Positions 179 through 20,009 of a stretch of DNA of 23,332 nt are shown piece after piece. A program made the translations under genes and the position numbers. The stretch comes from a virus. The notes beneath the pieces are model-generated. The model saw nothing but the letters and a program-made list of their open reading frames with translations, was not told the DNA's origin and searched no databases. How positions within the stretch are numbered: the first letter of the stretch is position 1; each line of letters begins with the position of its first letter. The stretch is taken from positions 1 through 23,332 of IMG/VR virus record IMGVR_UViG_3300032116_001337. One strand, 5' to 3'.

Positions 179-1027
179 TTACATTCCACAATATCCTGAA
201 TCGCATTCATTAAAATCATCGTCAAATAATTCTAATTGCGTTCTATAGCTTTTAATTTTTTCATATGTAATTCCACTTTTAAACGTGCATCCGTTTTTCT
301 TTTCCATTTCAATAAACCAATTAAACTGCTTTTCGGCTTTGTTACTCATATGTTTAAGCATTAATTCGCTTCGGTGAAAACAACCTACGCAGTTATTTTG
401 ATATGCAAATCTAACAGGTTTATCTTTCCAGTAGTTTTCTATTGTGTCTTTAAATATAGCGTCATTAATTAAAGGGAAAGTAGTCTTTCGGTATGGTAAT
501 TCTTTCCATTTATTGCGTCCGTTTTTTATTCCAACCTTAAATTTAAAACTTTCTATCCCATCAATAGCACGTTCACTCATTGTTTTTGCTCTGCTCATTT
601 CATTTGCTCTAAAACCTATTCGCATTTCTATTGGTAGTTCCGTATTTTCGTAGCACCATTGTGCAATTGGTTTAACTTTCATGTCCATAGTGCAGTAACG
701 TGTCATTTGATTAGGTAAATAATTTTTACCATTTGCCATTTTATAACTTGCTATAACTTCTTCAAACGTGTTTTCGCTTATCCATACTATTTCTTGACCT
801 ATAAACTGCTCTAAATCTAACATCGTATAAATTATAGTATCTTCTTCTAAAGTTCCTATAAATTCAGTTCCGATTTTATCGCTTACGATTTGTCTAATTT
901 TCGCATCAGGGAATAAACAATTTGTATCATTTGTTCTTACAAGTGAAAATATGTTATAATCAGCAGGATAATTTGCAGCTATATAACTCGATGTTTTACC
1001 ACCACTTAAACTGTTAACTGTTTTCAT
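179..1027 (-). CDS. PAPS-reductase / DndC-like PP-loop protein
   Basis: A 282-residue protein with an N-terminal PP-loop, SLSGGKTSS at residues 6-14, the ATP-pyrophosphatase signature of the adenine-nucleotide alpha-hydrolase fold used by PAPS reductases and DndC-like enzymes. Cysteines fall at about 112 (RYCT), 213 and 216 (CVGCFHR), 247, 275 and 280 (GYCGM). The 112/213/216 set, perhaps with a C-terminal one, could ligate an Fe-S cluster; this is inferred. Such proteins are common in phages but their substrate is mostly unknown. Sulfur metabolism, nucleic-acid thiolation and phosphorothioate-like modification are all possible. It starts 2 nt after the helicase-like gene ends, so it is probably co-transcribed with the replication genes. 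No DndD/E or modification partners are visible here. Confidence 0.8.
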   Translation of the reverse strand: MKTVNSLSGGKTSSYIAANYPADYNIFSLVRTNDTNCLFPDAKIRQIVSDKIGTEFIGTLEEDTIIYTMLDLEQFIGQEIVWISENTFEEVIASYKMANGKNYLPNQMTRYCTMDMKVKPIAQWCYENTELPIEMRIGFRANEMSRAKTMSERAIDGIESFKFKVGIKNGRNKWKELPYRKTTFPLINDAIFKDTIENYWKDKPVRFAYQNNCVGCFHRSELMLKHMSNKAEKQFNWFIEMEKKNGCTFKSGITYEKIKSYRTQLELFDDDFNECDSGYCGM

Positions 1028-2552: not shown

Positions 2553-2565
2553 TTTTTACTGCCTT

Positions 2566-2616
2566 AAAAAAAAAGCCCTATCAGTGTTCACGAGGCAGCG
2601 TTACTAACCAATAGGG
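2566..2616 (-). terminator. Intrinsic terminator in leader of the replication gene
   Basis: On the minus strand CCCTAT (2616-2611) pairs with ATAGGG (2581-2576), followed by C and nine T residues (2574-2566). The 29-nt inner loop contains a smaller hairpin. The 3' end lies only 14 nt before the ATG of the replication-initiator-like gene. It therefore either ends a small RNA or attenuates that gene. Confidence 0.7.
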
Positions 2617-2650
2617 ACTTCAATAATGTCTCTTCGGGACTGCCTTCCCA
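2566..2650 (-). ncRNA. Structured leader or small RNA with two complementary hairpin loops
   Basis: The 119-nt gap between the 38-residue gene and the replication gene holds a TATATTTG box at 2662-2655, then an RNA expected to start near 2650. Hairpin 1 is GGGA/TCCC (2649-2646 with 2639-2636) with hexaloop AGGCAG (2645-2640). Hairpin 2, inside the terminator, is ACG/CGT (2601-2599 with 2592-2590) with hexaloop CTGCCT (2598-2593). The two loops are exactly complementary. A second AGGCAG lies at 2564-2559, in the probable ribosome-binding region of the downstream gene. GGGA can also pair with TCCC at 2617-2614, within the terminator's 5' arm. Either an attenuator or a free small RNA fits. The stems are short, so the structure is only a prediction by eye. 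Confidence 0.45.
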
Positions 2651-2654
2651 ATCG

Positions 2655-2662
2655 CAAATATA
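2655..2662 (-). promoter_or_regulatory. Bacteroidetes-type promoter -7 box (TATATTTG)
   Basis: TATATTTGCGAT on the minus strand matches the TAnnTTTG -7 consensus of the Bacteroidetes primary sigma factor. No clear -33 TTG is present; TTTC at 2687-2684 is the nearest weak match. The box sits 5 nt before a compact structured region and 100 nt before the replication gene, which supports a real start site. Confidence 0.55.
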
Positions 2663-2973: not shown

Positions 2974-3185
2974 ACGTTTGATTTTATAATTATTTCGTTA
3001 TGATTAATTACTTTAAAGCTACGCATTCTTTCGTATTTCTGCATAAACTGAAGATTCATTTTATCGTAAACATCCTCGTGATATTCCTTACCTTGTAAAA
3101 TCAATTCCTTTAAACGTTCTATTTGCTGCAATAAGACGGATTCATTTGTCCATTCAAATACTGCTGTAACTTCTTTAGCCTTCAT
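2970..3185 (-). CDS. Hypothetical helical protein (71 aa)
   Basis: A 71-residue protein. Residues 12-45 form a likely amphipathic or coiled-coil helix (NESVLLQQIERLKELILQGK), with a basic and hydrophobic beta-like end (RSFKVINHNEIIIKSNV). It contains no cysteine and no membrane segment. Both ends are joined to neighbours by 4-nt ATGA overlaps. No family is recognised. Location in a cassette of tiny genes next to replication functions suggests an early accessory role such as a host-interaction protein, but this is only contextual. Confidence 0.65.
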   Translation of the reverse strand: MKAKEVTAVFEWTNESVLLQQIERLKELILQGKEYHEDVYDKMNLQFMQKYERMRSFKVINHNEIIIKSNV

Positions 3186-3352
3186 ATTCTTATCATATTA
3201 TTGTTTTCATCAAATCTAACATTATATGCCTTAGCCTGACAAACCCTTAAATAATGCTCCATATTAAATCTACCTAAGTTCTTTTTCTTTTGATCGTGCC
3301 AATAGTTGATTATTTCAAGAAATGTTGGCTTCGTGTTTTTCTTCGTTCTCAT
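3182..3352 (-). CDS. Small basic hypothetical protein (56 aa)
   Basis: ATG at 3352-3350 overlaps the TGA of the upstream 48-residue gene by 4 nt, and the stop TGA at 3184-3182 overlaps the next ATG by 4 nt. The protein begins MRTKKNTKPTFLEIINYWHD and continues with KKKNLGRFN. It is strongly basic with a short acidic and Asn-rich end. The basic N-terminus could contact nucleic acid, which is inference only. One copy of the repeated AAAACACGAA motif lies inside it, read as Lys-Asn-Thr-Lys. No family is recognised. Confidence 0.55.
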   Translation of the reverse strand: MRTKKNTKPTFLEIINYWHDQKKKNLGRFNMEHYLRVCQAKAYNVRFDENNNMIRI

Positions 3353-3677: not shown

Positions 3678-3877
3678 ATCTTTTTAACGATATTACCAAC
3701 AATTTTAAAAAGACCGCCTTGAGAGTCGACTTTCACCTCTACTTTATCAGCGGTCTTGTCAACAGTTACATCTATGTTTTTAGAATCGTAATCTACTTTT
3801 AACTCTCCGTCTTTGCGTTCAACCTTAACGTCTATGTTTTCGGTGTCTACTTCTACTTTTAAATTTTTCTTTGCCAT
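3656..3877 (-). CDS. Small protein with beta-repeat body and cationic amphipathic tail; possible lysis factor
   Basis: A 73-residue protein. Residues 1-52 alternate charged and hydrophobic residues in a repeating pattern (LKVEVDTENIDVKVE, LKVDYDSKNIDVTVD, KVEVKVDS), suggesting three beta repeats. Residues 54-73 (GGLFKIVGNIVKKILLRRLK) form a cationic amphipathic helix like those of membrane-active peptides. It directly follows the endolysin with a TAATG stop-start overlap and ends the late unit. Together these suggest a membrane-disrupting or spanin-like helper in lysis. No signal peptide or lipobox is present, so it is not a classical spanin. Function is inferred. Confidence 0.7.
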   Translation of the reverse strand: MAKKNLKVEVDTENIDVKVERKDGELKVDYDSKNIDVTVDKTADKVEVKVDSQGGLFKIVGNIVKKILLRRLK

Positions 3878-16615: not shown

Positions 16616-18936
16616 TGTTGTACTATTATTGTATTTGTTGCGCTTATATTCCCATTAATATCAGTATATGTAGCTACTATTGTTATAACTTGAACGGAGC
16701 TTTCTTCAGTAATTAAATATAAACCAGTTTCTGTAATTATTGGGTCTGTATTTTCGGCTAATATTCTTGATGTTGTATTCGTATTTGCGGGAATACAAAC
16801 CTCCACTATCTGATTTTGATAAATCGTACTTGGAGTTATTGTAACACCCGGGAAAGAACTTGTTATTGTAGCACTTGCAGTACCGTTTGGAAAAGGTATA
16901 TTAACATCTAAACATTGAGCGTTAGGGTCAGGGTTAATTGGGTCTTGAGCAATTAAAGGTCTGAAGTCTAAATATAAACTGAAATTTACTTCACCAGTTG
17001 TAAGGTTACTTTTCATTTCGTTTATAATATATCTCTTATCTCGAATAATAACCCTATCGTTCAATCTAAGGTTACTTAAAAGGCTAATTGGTAAAATCGT
17101 CTTAACGTTAATTAAACGTTGTTTTAAATCGAATAAATTACTTAAGTAAGGAAAATAATAAGTAGCGTATAATCCGTTGTTTATAGTTTCTAAATGAATT
17201 ATTGAATTGTCAGCTCCAAAGTTTAAACTATATTTCGTGTTTTGGTAACTTAAATCTTGCCCGAATAAAGCGTAAGTGTCAATATTTTGATGCGTAGTAC
17301 CATCGTAGAATCTTATATCATGCGGTAAAGATTGACTGGTTCCATAAAAATAAAACAAACAAGGCTTTGGAGTGTAAGCTTGATAATTTTCATTAAGCGC
17401 ATACCCTAATATCGCATAATTAGTTCCATCTGTTGAACGTGCAAATAATAAATTTTCAAATGGGCTTTCTATTACATACTCGCCTCCATCATAATCGAAT
17501 TGATATTCTAAGTTCCCGTATTGCTGATTATAAGTTTTAAAGTAATTCTTATTTACAAATGATTCGCTTTCTTGATATTTAAACTTTATTCTTTTAAATA
17601 ATTTAACTCGTTCAATATCTATTGAGTCTAAATCCGTATATTCGGTTATATCTACAATAGCTCCTTGACTATACCATATATCTAAAGGCAAAACTTGATA
17701 AACATTTTCTTCTACGCCTACGCAAGTCATATTGAAATCTAATAAAACACCACGTAAGAAATCCTCAACTTTCATATCAGGAACAACGTTATTTAAATTC
17801 ACATTACCTGTTAATGTTGTTTGAATTGTACTTATTTGTGCTATATTATTTAATCCTTGATTACTTGTTATTTGATAAATAATATTTAAATCAACATTCA
17901 TAGGTGCTGTTGCTCTTAACTTAAACGTTAATTTAGTATCTAAACCAATGGTGTTTTGAAAAGATACGTTTCCGAAATTGCCAGTAGTATCTCCAGTTAT
18001 TGTTTGATTATAATTACCATCTTGAAAAACATCAATATAAAAAGTCCCTGCCGCCGATAAATTTAGAACCTCAAAATACACTGTATGAGTTTGAGTTGGT
18101 ATCGGTGCGTATTTTATATTTATGTAATCTTGGTAAATATTTACATATTCAAGTGAAGAAGGGTCAGGAATATTAGGGTCTGCAATAACAGTTGCTATAA
18201 TTTGGTCTATTACAATATCTGATTGTTCACTTACCCAAGTATATTGATTCGTGTTTTTGCCCCATAAAAATAACCTTCTAAATCTTTGGTCATTAAAAAA
18301 AGAACTCTGAAACGTTATTCCGTATTTATCCTCAATAGCTTCAAATATCTTACTTACTTTAATTGCAGGAAAAAGCTCATCGTATTGAATAGCGTGTGTA
18401 TTTTGTGTTATATCCTGCGTCCCGTGATGATATTCCCATAACCGCGTATTAGCGATTAACGGATAGCGAACATCGTAATCTGTTGCCGTGTCAGTTATTC
18501 TATCGTATATTTCAGTTCCATCAAAAGCAAATTCTAAACTACTAAAATCTAAATCTTTTAATTTATCCTCTCCGAACTTATCTTTTAACGCAAGTATATC
18601 GCCATAAAAAGTTATAGTGTAACTTTCTACTTGCCCATTTTTTAGATTAGACTTTTCAAGTTGTATCTTACCACGTCTAAAAAAAGTAAGGTCTATTTCT
18701 ATAAATGCTGAACGCCTTATGTTAGGGTCTATTGTTGGGTTTACATCCGATTGATAAAAGTGTTCAAATATCTCGTTGTTATGAGGAGTAGCAGGAACGG
18801 TAAAGCTTTGCGAAAAGTCAGTGAATACTTTTGATATATCCGAAATGTTTTGAACGCTTGAAGTAACGTTTATTTGTTCGTCGTTGAATAGTTCTAATTG
18901 AACACCCTCTATAAATATTCCTACTACTCGATTCAT
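16612..18936 (-). CDS. Tail tip / baseplate hub-like structural protein
   Basis: A 774-residue protein. The N-terminal 120 residues (FIEGVQLELFNDEQINVTSS; SQSFTVPATPHNNEIFEHFY) match a recurring pattern of large tail proteins in Bacteroidetes phages, with a beta-rich domain similar to tail hub proteins. The middle contains many Tyr/Asn/Asp-rich strands, and residues 685-774 look like an Ig-like or carbohydrate-binding C-terminal domain (NGTASATITSSFPGVTITPS). No hydrolase motif is seen. It overlaps the 358-residue gene by 4 nt and the 52-residue gene by 4 nt. It is likely part of the tail tip complex. A baseplate protein or tail-associated adhesin remains possible. Confidence 0.65.
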   Translation of the reverse strand: MNRVVGIFIEGVQLELFNDEQINVTSSVQNISDISKVFTDFSQSFTVPATPHNNEIFEHFYQSDVNPTIDPNIRRSAFIEIDLTFFRRGKIQLEKSNLKNGQVESYTITFYGDILALKDKFGEDKLKDLDFSSLEFAFDGTEIYDRITDTATDYDVRYPLIANTRLWEYHHGTQDITQNTHAIQYDELFPAIKVSKIFEAIEDKYGITFQSSFFNDQRFRRLFLWGKNTNQYTWVSEQSDIVIDQIIATVIADPNIPDPSSLEYVNIYQDYINIKYAPIPTQTHTVYFEVLNLSAAGTFYIDVFQDGNYNQTITGDTTGNFGNVSFQNTIGLDTKLTFKLRATAPMNVDLNIIYQITSNQGLNNIAQISTIQTTLTGNVNLNNVVPDMKVEDFLRGVLLDFNMTCVGVEENVYQVLPLDIWYSQGAIVDITEYTDLDSIDIERVKLFKRIKFKYQESESFVNKNYFKTYNQQYGNLEYQFDYDGGEYVIESPFENLLFARSTDGTNYAILGYALNENYQAYTPKPCLFYFYGTSQSLPHDIRFYDGTTHQNIDTYALFGQDLSYQNTKYSLNFGADNSIIHLETINNGLYATYYFPYLSNLFDLKQRLINVKTILPISLLSNLRLNDRVIIRDKRYIINEMKSNLTTGEVNFSLYLDFRPLIAQDPINPDPNAQCLDVNIPFPNGTASATITSSFPGVTITPSTIYQNQIVEVCIPANTNTTSRILAENTDPIITETGLYLITEESSVQVITIVATYTDINGNISATNTIIVQQ

Positions 18937-20009
18937 ATTACATTGTTAATTGCATTGTAAGCAAATTCAAACTCCATTTGGTAGTTAATCATTTTCGTGT
19001 TTATGCTTTTGAATAACTCCGTGCTTTGCGTGTTTAATTTTACTGGCAAAGAGTTTAATAATATCCTTTCGCTCAACATTAACTGCTTAACTATTTCTTT
19101 AAAGTCTTCATTTACCCAATCGGTATTTACCTTAATCGTCTTTTTGCCGTTTACGTTAAATGACTTTCTTTGACCTACTAAAGTGTCATAATCAGGAAAA
19201 GCTCCTTGCATTAAATTATAATCCGTCTTTTCAATGTTTAACGTGTCATTTGAGGCACCGAAAAACCAAGTTCTTTGCCAACCTCCATACTTGTTTACAA
19301 AGTCGCATACAATAGGCGTATACTTACAATTTAGATAAGGCTCAAAATATCCAGTATATAAAACAACACCTGACAAAACATAGTATATTTCTAATTTGTT
19401 TCCATCTGCATAATAAGATTGATGAACTTTACGAACATCAATTACTGAACTATTACTTATTGATTGAACTTGAGTTGCTCCAGTTCTTAAATTAGTCCAT
19501 CTTGCGCTTACTGCTGTTAATGTTGTAGCTACTGTTATAAAATTACTTCTATAATCCGTGTTTGTGCTTGGGTCTTCGTTAGCGTCGTAAGCATAAAAGA
19601 AAGTCCCTTCATCATGTAAAATATCGTAGCTTAAAGTTGGGTTATAACCTTGCTCATAATATCCGAATCCGTCAAATGCTTTATAAGTCGTAGTATCTAA
19701 TAAAGTGTAAGTTGTGCCGTCTAATTTATAACGTTTTACTTGTACGTTACACCATTGAGCAGTCGGAGTAGTTGTATTGTTATTCCAGTTAGTTTGACGT
19801 TCATCAAAATTTAGGTATTCACGAATGTAAGGTGAAATATTATAATACGTGTTTACGTTGTTTGAAGCTGGAATTAATTTGCTAAGTGTATATTGAGGGT
19901 CTGTTGGAGCTGAACCCGTGCCATTCCAAATTCTTAACTCTACCTTTGAACCTTCTTGACCGCTTTCGGCTATTGTTACTATAAAAGGTGAACGTGCAAA
20001 AATACTCAT
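18933..20009 (-). CDS. Tail protein, possibly distal-tail-like
   Basis: A 358-residue, beta-rich protein. It begins MSIFARSPFIVTIAESGQEG and continues KVELRIWNGTGSAPTDPQYT. Tyr/Asn/Thr-rich strands follow throughout (YYNISPYIREYLNFDERQTN; YILHDEGT-like stretch near residue 130), and the end KMINYQMEFEFAYNAINNVI is typical of a virion protein strand. It lies in the order HK97-gp10-like, this gene, tail-tip-like, each joined by a 4-nt ATGA overlap, suggesting an ordered tail assembly module. The family is not recognised with certainty; a distal tail or tail-tube-initiating role is inferred from position. Confidence 0.6.
   Translation of the reverse strand: MSIFARSPFIVTIAESGQEGSKVELRIWNGTGSAPTDPQYTLSKLIPASNNVNTYYNISPYIREYLNFDERQTNWNNNTTTPTAQWCNVQVKRYKLDGTTYTLLDTTTYKAFDGFGYYEQGYNPTLSYDILHDEGTFFYAYDANEDPSTNTDYRSNFITVATTLTAVSARWTNLRTGATQVQSISNSSVIDVRKVHQSYYADGNKLEIYYVLSGVVLYTGYFEPYLNCKYTPIVCDFVNKYGGWQRTWFFGASNDTLNIEKTDYNLMQGAFPDYDTLVGQRKSFNVNGKKTIKVNTDWVNEDFKEIVKQLMLSERILLNSLPVKLNTQSTELFKSINTKMINYQMEFEFAYNAINNVI

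Follow-up and report, generated by a model that had tools for sequence, protein, structure and literature searches.

The window, that is, the whole stretch of DNA analysed here (23,332 nucleotides), is a fragment of a tailed-phage record, and distant relatives of its terminase and portal occur in phages of Flavobacterium and Nonlabens. A replisome-organizer-like protein of 193 aa is encoded on the minus strand (1971–2552), and this ORF, located 3′ of the leader described below, matched the "replisome organizer" profile phrog_13246 with E = 2e-6. The replication genes adjoin a phosphoadenosine-phosphosulfate-reductase-like gene (179–1027, minus strand; phrog_424, E = 2.8e-21), which is possibly a DNA-modification or sulfur gene. 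No relative of the window replication protein was found in the bacterial genomes examined, among which chromosomes were sampled only slightly.

The leader also lies on the minus strand. It is preceded by a Bacteroidota-type −7 promoter box, TATATTTG (2655–2662), read from the sequence; the same 8-letter box preceded 50 of the 61 elements that scored high when the descriptor was first applied. The P1 hairpin (TTGGGA-AGGCAG-TCCCGA, 2634–2651) starts 3 nt 3′ of the box and was assigned by folding and as the positional counterpart of P1 in types B and D of the relatives. Its arms, TTGGGA (2651–2646) and TCCCGA (2639–2634), form 6 bp. An earlier interpretation of this DNA made from the letters alone, hereafter the sequence-only reading, had given P1 four base pairs (GGGA/TCCC), and had correctly placed GGGA 5 nt after the box. 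The P1 loop AGGCAG (X1, 2640–2645) is the partner of X′, and their kissing helix covaries in relatives. P1 is joined to P2 by a 17-nt A-rich linker (2617–2633), delimited by the alignments and a covariance-model alignment. The linker contains ACATTATT, a motif partly kept as ATTATT in the alignment of type B, with a similar TTATT in D.

The terminator stem P2 encloses P3 (2576–2616) and pairs CCCTATTGGT (2616–2607) with ACTGATAGGG (2585–2576) over 10 bp; it was found by folding and covaries in relatives. The P2/P3 internal loop (2587–2605) consists of AGUA (2605–2602) and GAA (2589–2587) and is kept in alignment A4. This AGUA/GAA junction is common to types A and B, and its counterpart in family D is UGAA/GGA; we take the former to resemble a loop-E/sarcin-ricin module, as a candidate likeness. 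The inner hairpin P3 (ACG-CTGCCT-CGT, 2590–2601), with arms ACG (2601–2599) and CGT (2592–2590), was also predicted by folding and covaries in D. The sequence and the relatives agree in making its loop CTGCCT (X′, 2593–2598) complementary to both X1 and X3. In the window, AGGCAG and CTGCCT are exactly complementary and GGGA is able to pair with TCCC at 2617–2614, both as previously noticed. The terminator ends in a T-run (2566–2574), followed by AAGGCAGTAAAAA and the ATG (2552–2550) of the replisome-organizer-like gene. The nine T (2574–2566) had been counted correctly, but the gap between them and the ATG is 13 nt and not 14. The third hexamer AGGCAG (X3, 2559–2564), recognised by comparing X3 with X1 in relatives, lies 6 nt before the ATG. 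The sequence-only reading had its coordinates right, among them those of the second AGGCAG at 2564–2559. We must also note that the single-sequence fold of the window element was not unusually stable (z = −0.64), a negative outcome of a simple MFE test that is not decisive where pseudoknots are involved. Energy by itself would thus lend the element no support; its support is comparative.

Covariation of the kissing loops in relatives

Many IMG/VR contigs shared the layout of −7 box, P1 hairpin, terminator P2/P3, T-run and start codon. A search with the downstream protein gave 32 loci, at which the leaders were not mere copies of the window leader. X1, X′ and X3 read GGGCAG, CTGCCC and GGGCAG in L014 and L023, GAGCAG, CTGCTC and GAGCAG in L025, and ACAACCAC, GTGGTTGT and ACAACC-ATG in L004 and others, in unchanged order and at distances nearly equal to those of the window. 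The three hexamers thus vary in step.

The type B pattern (GTTC NNN CAG GAAC ... CTG NNN N CCGAAAG) left three bases per loop free and did not demand complementarity. All 18 elements that were distinct by their downstream sequence had perfectly complementary loops, with four loop sequences among the matches listed. The pattern for family D, AAAGRARTTATT..AATGAANNNGA, includes neither loop. It gave 98 distinct matches listed, of which 45 were flanked by a −7 box on the 5′ side and a T-run on the 3′ side; X1 and X′ were complementary in 45/45 of these (over 8 nt in 37 elements and over 7 nt in the other 8), with at least 11 loop sequences. As a cross-control, X′ was compared with the P1 region of elements carrying another loop, and complementarity of 8 nt was found in 0% and of 7 nt in 1.8%. 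The other 53 matches, mostly chance matches in coding sequence, were mainly complementary over 0–5 nt. A T-run was present in 45 of the 46 D elements having a −7 box. Type C was collected with X′ fixed, and the unbiased tests of the kiss are types B and D only; the range of loop sequences and hosts from the IMG/VR scans is a lower bound. Loops lacking conservation or compensatory change would have spoken against the kissing-loop leader that the sequence-only reading placed before the replication gene. The loops changed in step across relatives, and the leader proved conserved, with relatives in types B and D.

In the alignment of the 45 D sequences, 98.7% of the cells were paired, and the covariation score was 0.657 versus 0.188 ± 0.013 in shuffles (0/500) and at most 0.117 when slid. 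Both sides had changed in 6 of 9 kissing pairs, 6 of 11 pairs of P2 and 3 of 4 pairs of P3. The type B alignment (17 sequences) was 99.5% paired and scored 0.314 against 0.131 ± 0.013 in shuffles. Within the 10–11 bp P2 stems of D, present in all 45 sequences and extended until a mismatch, we counted 74 G-U and 0 A-C pairs; the presence of G-U yet not A-C indicates that the structure forms in the RNA of the coding strand. On this comparative basis, the predicted structure of the kissing-loop leader is near certain.

The covariance model R1, built from type B only and with the kissing helix left out, found the window at 2653–2563 (E = 3e-10). The window copy is thus recognised by a model of another type. 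R1 also recovered leaders ahead of HNH-type genes (E = 1e-6), the L120 element (3e-4) and one member of D (3e-3), and the D model found the cultured Flavobacterium phage FL-1 (KY421186.2; host Flavobacterium sp. B183) at 18933–19025 (E = 1.5e-7), where the box is at 18920 and the T-run near 19022. A generic descriptor, consisting of the box, P1, X1 and X′ within a stem carrying the T-run, scored ≥ 32 at 63 places versus 1.6 in dinucleotide shuffles. Descriptor and shuffles superseded a first, looser scan of all terminators, which gave many chance pairs of 6–7 nt. More distant classes with the same layout and unrelated sequence were found before another replication gene family; examples of their loops are TTTGACCA/TGGTCAAA (L131), GTAGGAG/CTCCTAC (L136), CGGGCAGGCT/AGCCTGCCCG (L148), CGGGCAGGTT/AACCTGCCCG (L172), GCTCAAGAA/TTCTTGAGC (L154), CTCGAAG/CTTCGAG (L155) and GAACGAG/CTCGTTC (L175). 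We also observed more inverted loop pairs near the replication gene in L142, L126 and L154–L169, e.g. CACATAGAA/TTCTATGTG, with no clear TANNTTTG box or with another geometry, and these may be more distant classes.

None of the 4227 Rfam models matched at the gathering threshold or, in a focused search, at E ≤ 1, and relaxed thresholds gave sub-threshold chance matches only, none of them credible at the element. Direct similarity searches of annotated phages gave no match with a type A or C query; the D query led to FL-1. The exact type C X′ was not found in the bacterial genomes examined, in which chromosomes were sampled only slightly. The layout was not found described in the open-access literature, which together with Rfam bears out the earlier remark that no described family has it. 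By sequence comparison, the predicted leader is a real, undescribed RNA class of Flavobacterium-type phages.

Downstream genes and the third hexamer

In the descriptor-selected set, the next ATG followed the T-run within a narrow range of distances (median 17 nt, middle half 15–20 nt, n = 91). For one replication gene family, the leader was situated 51–550 nt upstream of the gene at 42 of 80 loci, and 29 loci with at least 1 kb upstream had no such leader by the descriptor. A phage contig usually carried one leader and two at most. The genes behind the leader can be exchanged for one another, and they include those of DUF6291 replisome organizers and further replication proteins, NUMOD4/HNH-type and GIY-YIG endonucleases, and ParB-like proteins (ParB_N). 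Some leaders are followed by small ORFs leading up to the replication gene. Before HNH/NUMOD4-type genes, the architecture was observed at L004:6052–6160, L070:3826, L184:3512, L269:2696, L231:1979 and L291:9110 (minus); NUMOD4 was identified for L291, the other five were assigned by similarity, and the gene in L087 is GIY-YIG. Homing endonuclease genes of phages seem to come with a kissing-loop leader of their own.

Four high-scoring candidates had no ORF directly behind the T-run, namely FL-1 (KY421186.2) 3691–3800, L046 minus 8926, L121 minus 2255 and L071 minus 13208, and from their sequence they are possible stand-alone small RNAs. Some type C copies had a weak T-run. L052 (minus, ~1588) has its own leader without X3, and ACAACCAC occurs 1 nt ahead of the ATG that opens an 86-aa ORF in another part of the contig, as a possible trans target or by chance.

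X3 was identical to X1 and no more than 8 nt from the ATG in 2/2 elements of type A, 9/18 of type B and 16/19 of type C, and one further type C X3 (ACGACC, L055) pairs by wobble. It was absent in 45/45 D elements. Other NNGCAG hexamers, taken as a control, were found at X3 places in 0/120 cases. X3 covaried with X′ (GGGCAG, GAGCAG, GTGCAG, AGGCAG, ACAACC) and lay 0–6 nt before the ATG. Its recurrence in relatives supports the earlier view that X′ has two possible partners in the window, X1 and X3. Judged by these predicted pairings, X3 is a real, yet optional or secondary feature; as it is missing in half of B and all of D, a translational gate cannot be the core function. The second AGGCAG had been assigned to the probable ribosome-binding region, and it does lie in the initiation region, but it is not a Shine-Dalgarno sequence. 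Flavobacterium ribosomes use no Shine-Dalgarno pairing (PMC9976891), and X3 is therefore best understood as a plausible lever on access to the start site. In type C (e.g. L071 minus 3161–3260 and L074:6350–6450), X1 is often followed by an ATG and an ORF of 24–45 codons (..PRGCGY..) running through X′, with X1 in that position resembling a duplicate of X3, the true start region. A leader peptide as the common principle was rejected, as L067, L057 and L055 lack the short ORF and L078 has it in another frame.

Proposed function and alternatives

We favour, at about an even chance, the reading that the element would act as an attenuator-type 5′ leader of a phage replication operon, with translational gating where X3 exists. 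Such a leader probably controls the switch-on of phage replication. At the sequence level, the leader does show the attenuator trait of an intrinsic terminator close to the promoter. The layout, the three covarying helices with the kissing helix, the RNA strand and the constant spacing to the start codon, all established by comparison, support the leader reading, whereas the four ORF-less candidates fit a stand-alone RNA and argue against it, as do the weak T-runs of some type C copies and the 29 loci at which the descriptor saw no leader.

The type alignments contained no conserved antiterminator exclusive with the terminator. X′ occupies the whole P3 loop in types A and B and, in D, the eight bases at the 3′ side of a loop of 10, and likewise, by inspection, in type C. 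It never overlaps the P2 or P3 arms; in consequence, kiss and terminator can coexist, and the kiss is no usual antiterminator. The switch between termination and read-through suggested by the sequence-only reading is hence not upheld as exclusive pairing, X′ having no competition with the terminator. Pairing of GGGA with the TCCC of the terminator arm is available in the window's type, but has no general equivalent in the alignments of relatives. As a free duplex, the kissing helix amounts to about −8 to −13 kcal/mol, on the order of the window P2/P3 stem (−12.7). The sole exclusive choice in the leader is that of X′ between X1 and X3.

In the mechanism we propose, the transcript would start a few nt after the −7 box, P1 and the intrinsic terminator P2/P3 would fold, and the loops would kiss (X1:X′). 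Most transcripts would end at the T-run as a compact RNA of ~85–90 nt held by the kiss, so that early expression of the replication gene would be throttled, with a minor read-through fraction serving as mRNA. In the X3-bearing types, including the window, X3 of the mRNA would compete with X1 for X′: pairing of X′ with X3 would occlude the start region and pairing with X1 would leave it free, making X1 an anti-sequestering decoy. The leader might thereby set both mRNA amount and translation efficiency. Candidate signals that would shift the balance are the state of RNAP, a phage or host protein, and the accumulated terminated RNA.

The terminated RNA could itself be the functional molecule and work in trans as a phage small RNA, much as c4 RNA (P1/P7) does, which we consider rather unlikely. 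Its free copy of X′ would bind the start region of read-through mRNA from its own or a co-infecting phage or, where X3 is lacking, other targets. The anatomy is that of a full small-RNA gene (promoter, compact body, T-run), X3 would be the antisense target at the start codon, and a few stand-alone candidates exist, besides the ACAACCAC that precedes another ORF in L052. Nevertheless, the energies indicate that X′ is already held by X1 of the same molecule in an equal pairing, and the ATG is tightly spaced after the T-run. X (7–8 nt) almost never recurs elsewhere in its own locus (essentially never for 8-nt X), so that no phage target is visible in D. Loops serving as a self-recognition code, through which the terminated RNA of one phage would act on leaders with matching loops within the cell, controlling copy number or excluding related phages that co-infect, are unlikely on our estimate; such a code would explain why the loops of close leaders differ yet always match.

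It is also improbable that the element is a riboswitch-like leader sensing a ligand or protein, in which the kiss, linker and P2/P3 junction would form a pocket and the ligand would alter termination. Unpaired positions are indeed conserved (the linker AAAGAAGTTATT, UGAA/GGA in D, AGUA/GAA in A and B), and a pseudoknot riboswitch embedded in a terminator, HMP-PP, is known (PMC6478431). This conservation, however, holds within types only, linker and junction differing between types while the layout stays, and the DUF6291, NUMOD4, GIY-YIG and ParB_N genes downstream share no metabolite. The location at replication genes and the inverted repeats X1/X′ would suit an element acting as DNA, i.e. a protein operator, part of a replication origin or a replication-priming transcript. 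We consider this very unlikely, given G-U but not A-C pairs in P2, covarying stems of both loops, the fixed distance from promoter and T-run, and the occurrence before HNH and GIY-YIG genes. A common terminator beside a hairpin with a fortuitously matching loop would agree with the ordinary single-sequence fold (z = −0.64), but this chance reading has a negligible probability and is refuted by the comparative data: unasked complementarity in 18/18 and 45/45 elements, and 63 places against 1.6 in shuffles.

Regulatory leaders of Bacteroidota phages are almost unexplored, and the present family has many members, strong covariation, a clear place where the replication operon begins and one cultured phage (FL-1). 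Terminator and kissing loop in one small RNA make a compact system for studying what a long-range loop contact does to intrinsic termination and to start-site access in bacteria that ignore Shine-Dalgarno sequences. The loops, swapped freely in nature, are for that reason programmable in principle. If the self-recognition code were true, they would constitute an RNA-only incompatibility system in lytic phages, like the incompatibility loops of plasmids.

Comparison with known systems

The c4 antisense RNA of P1/P7 (RF01695) is, like the leader, a phage RNA. A single promoter serves both c4 and its target. The loops of c4 are complementary to the start region of the mRNA that they act on and block its translation (PMC12197685). 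The corresponding trait, a loop that can pair with the start region of the gene co-transcribed downstream, was found in types A and C and in half of type B, but not in D. The c4 target is an antirepressor, whereas that of the leader is replication; moreover, the leader has an extra X1 holding X′ and often lacks X3, and the element gave no sequence or structure match to RF01695.

The type III toxin-antitoxin RNAs and the abiF RNA consist of a structured RNA and a terminator followed by a same-strand gene. Unlike these RNAs (PMC12373285), the leader has no repeats and no toxin-like gene downstream, and its replication genes are exchangeable. The repZ leader of the IncI-complex plasmids (ColIb-P9) and the repC attenuator of pT181 are also leaders of replication genes in which loop sequences confer specificity. 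RNAI kisses stem-loop I (PMC10724649), and titles cited there name a leader pseudoknot or countertranscript-driven attenuation. The plasmid leaders need an antisense transcript, whereas here both loops reside in one RNA, one of them in the terminator. Furthermore, no antisense promoter of the plasmid RNAI type was conserved opposite the leader, TANNTTTG matching the opposite strand in only 11 of 72 leaders at scattered positions.

The phi29-type pRNA is likewise a phage RNA in which two loops complement each other and vary in concert from phage to phage; its loops join separate molecules for DNA packaging. The leader differs from it by its terminator and its location before replication genes. 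The HMP-PP (thiS) riboswitch likewise has a pseudoknot in an intrinsic terminator, where it controls read-through (PMC6478431). That pseudoknot disrupts the terminator, whereas X′ is not part of the P2/P3 arms and can coexist with the terminator, and the leader has no fixed aptamer sequence. Two kissing loops within one RNA, one of them in the terminator, are present in none of c4, the plasmid rep leaders and HMP-PP. Among the known systems, c4 is closest in effect, setting a loop against a start region, the plasmid rep leaders are closest in place, and the HMP-PP riboswitch is closest in placing a pseudoknot into the terminator.
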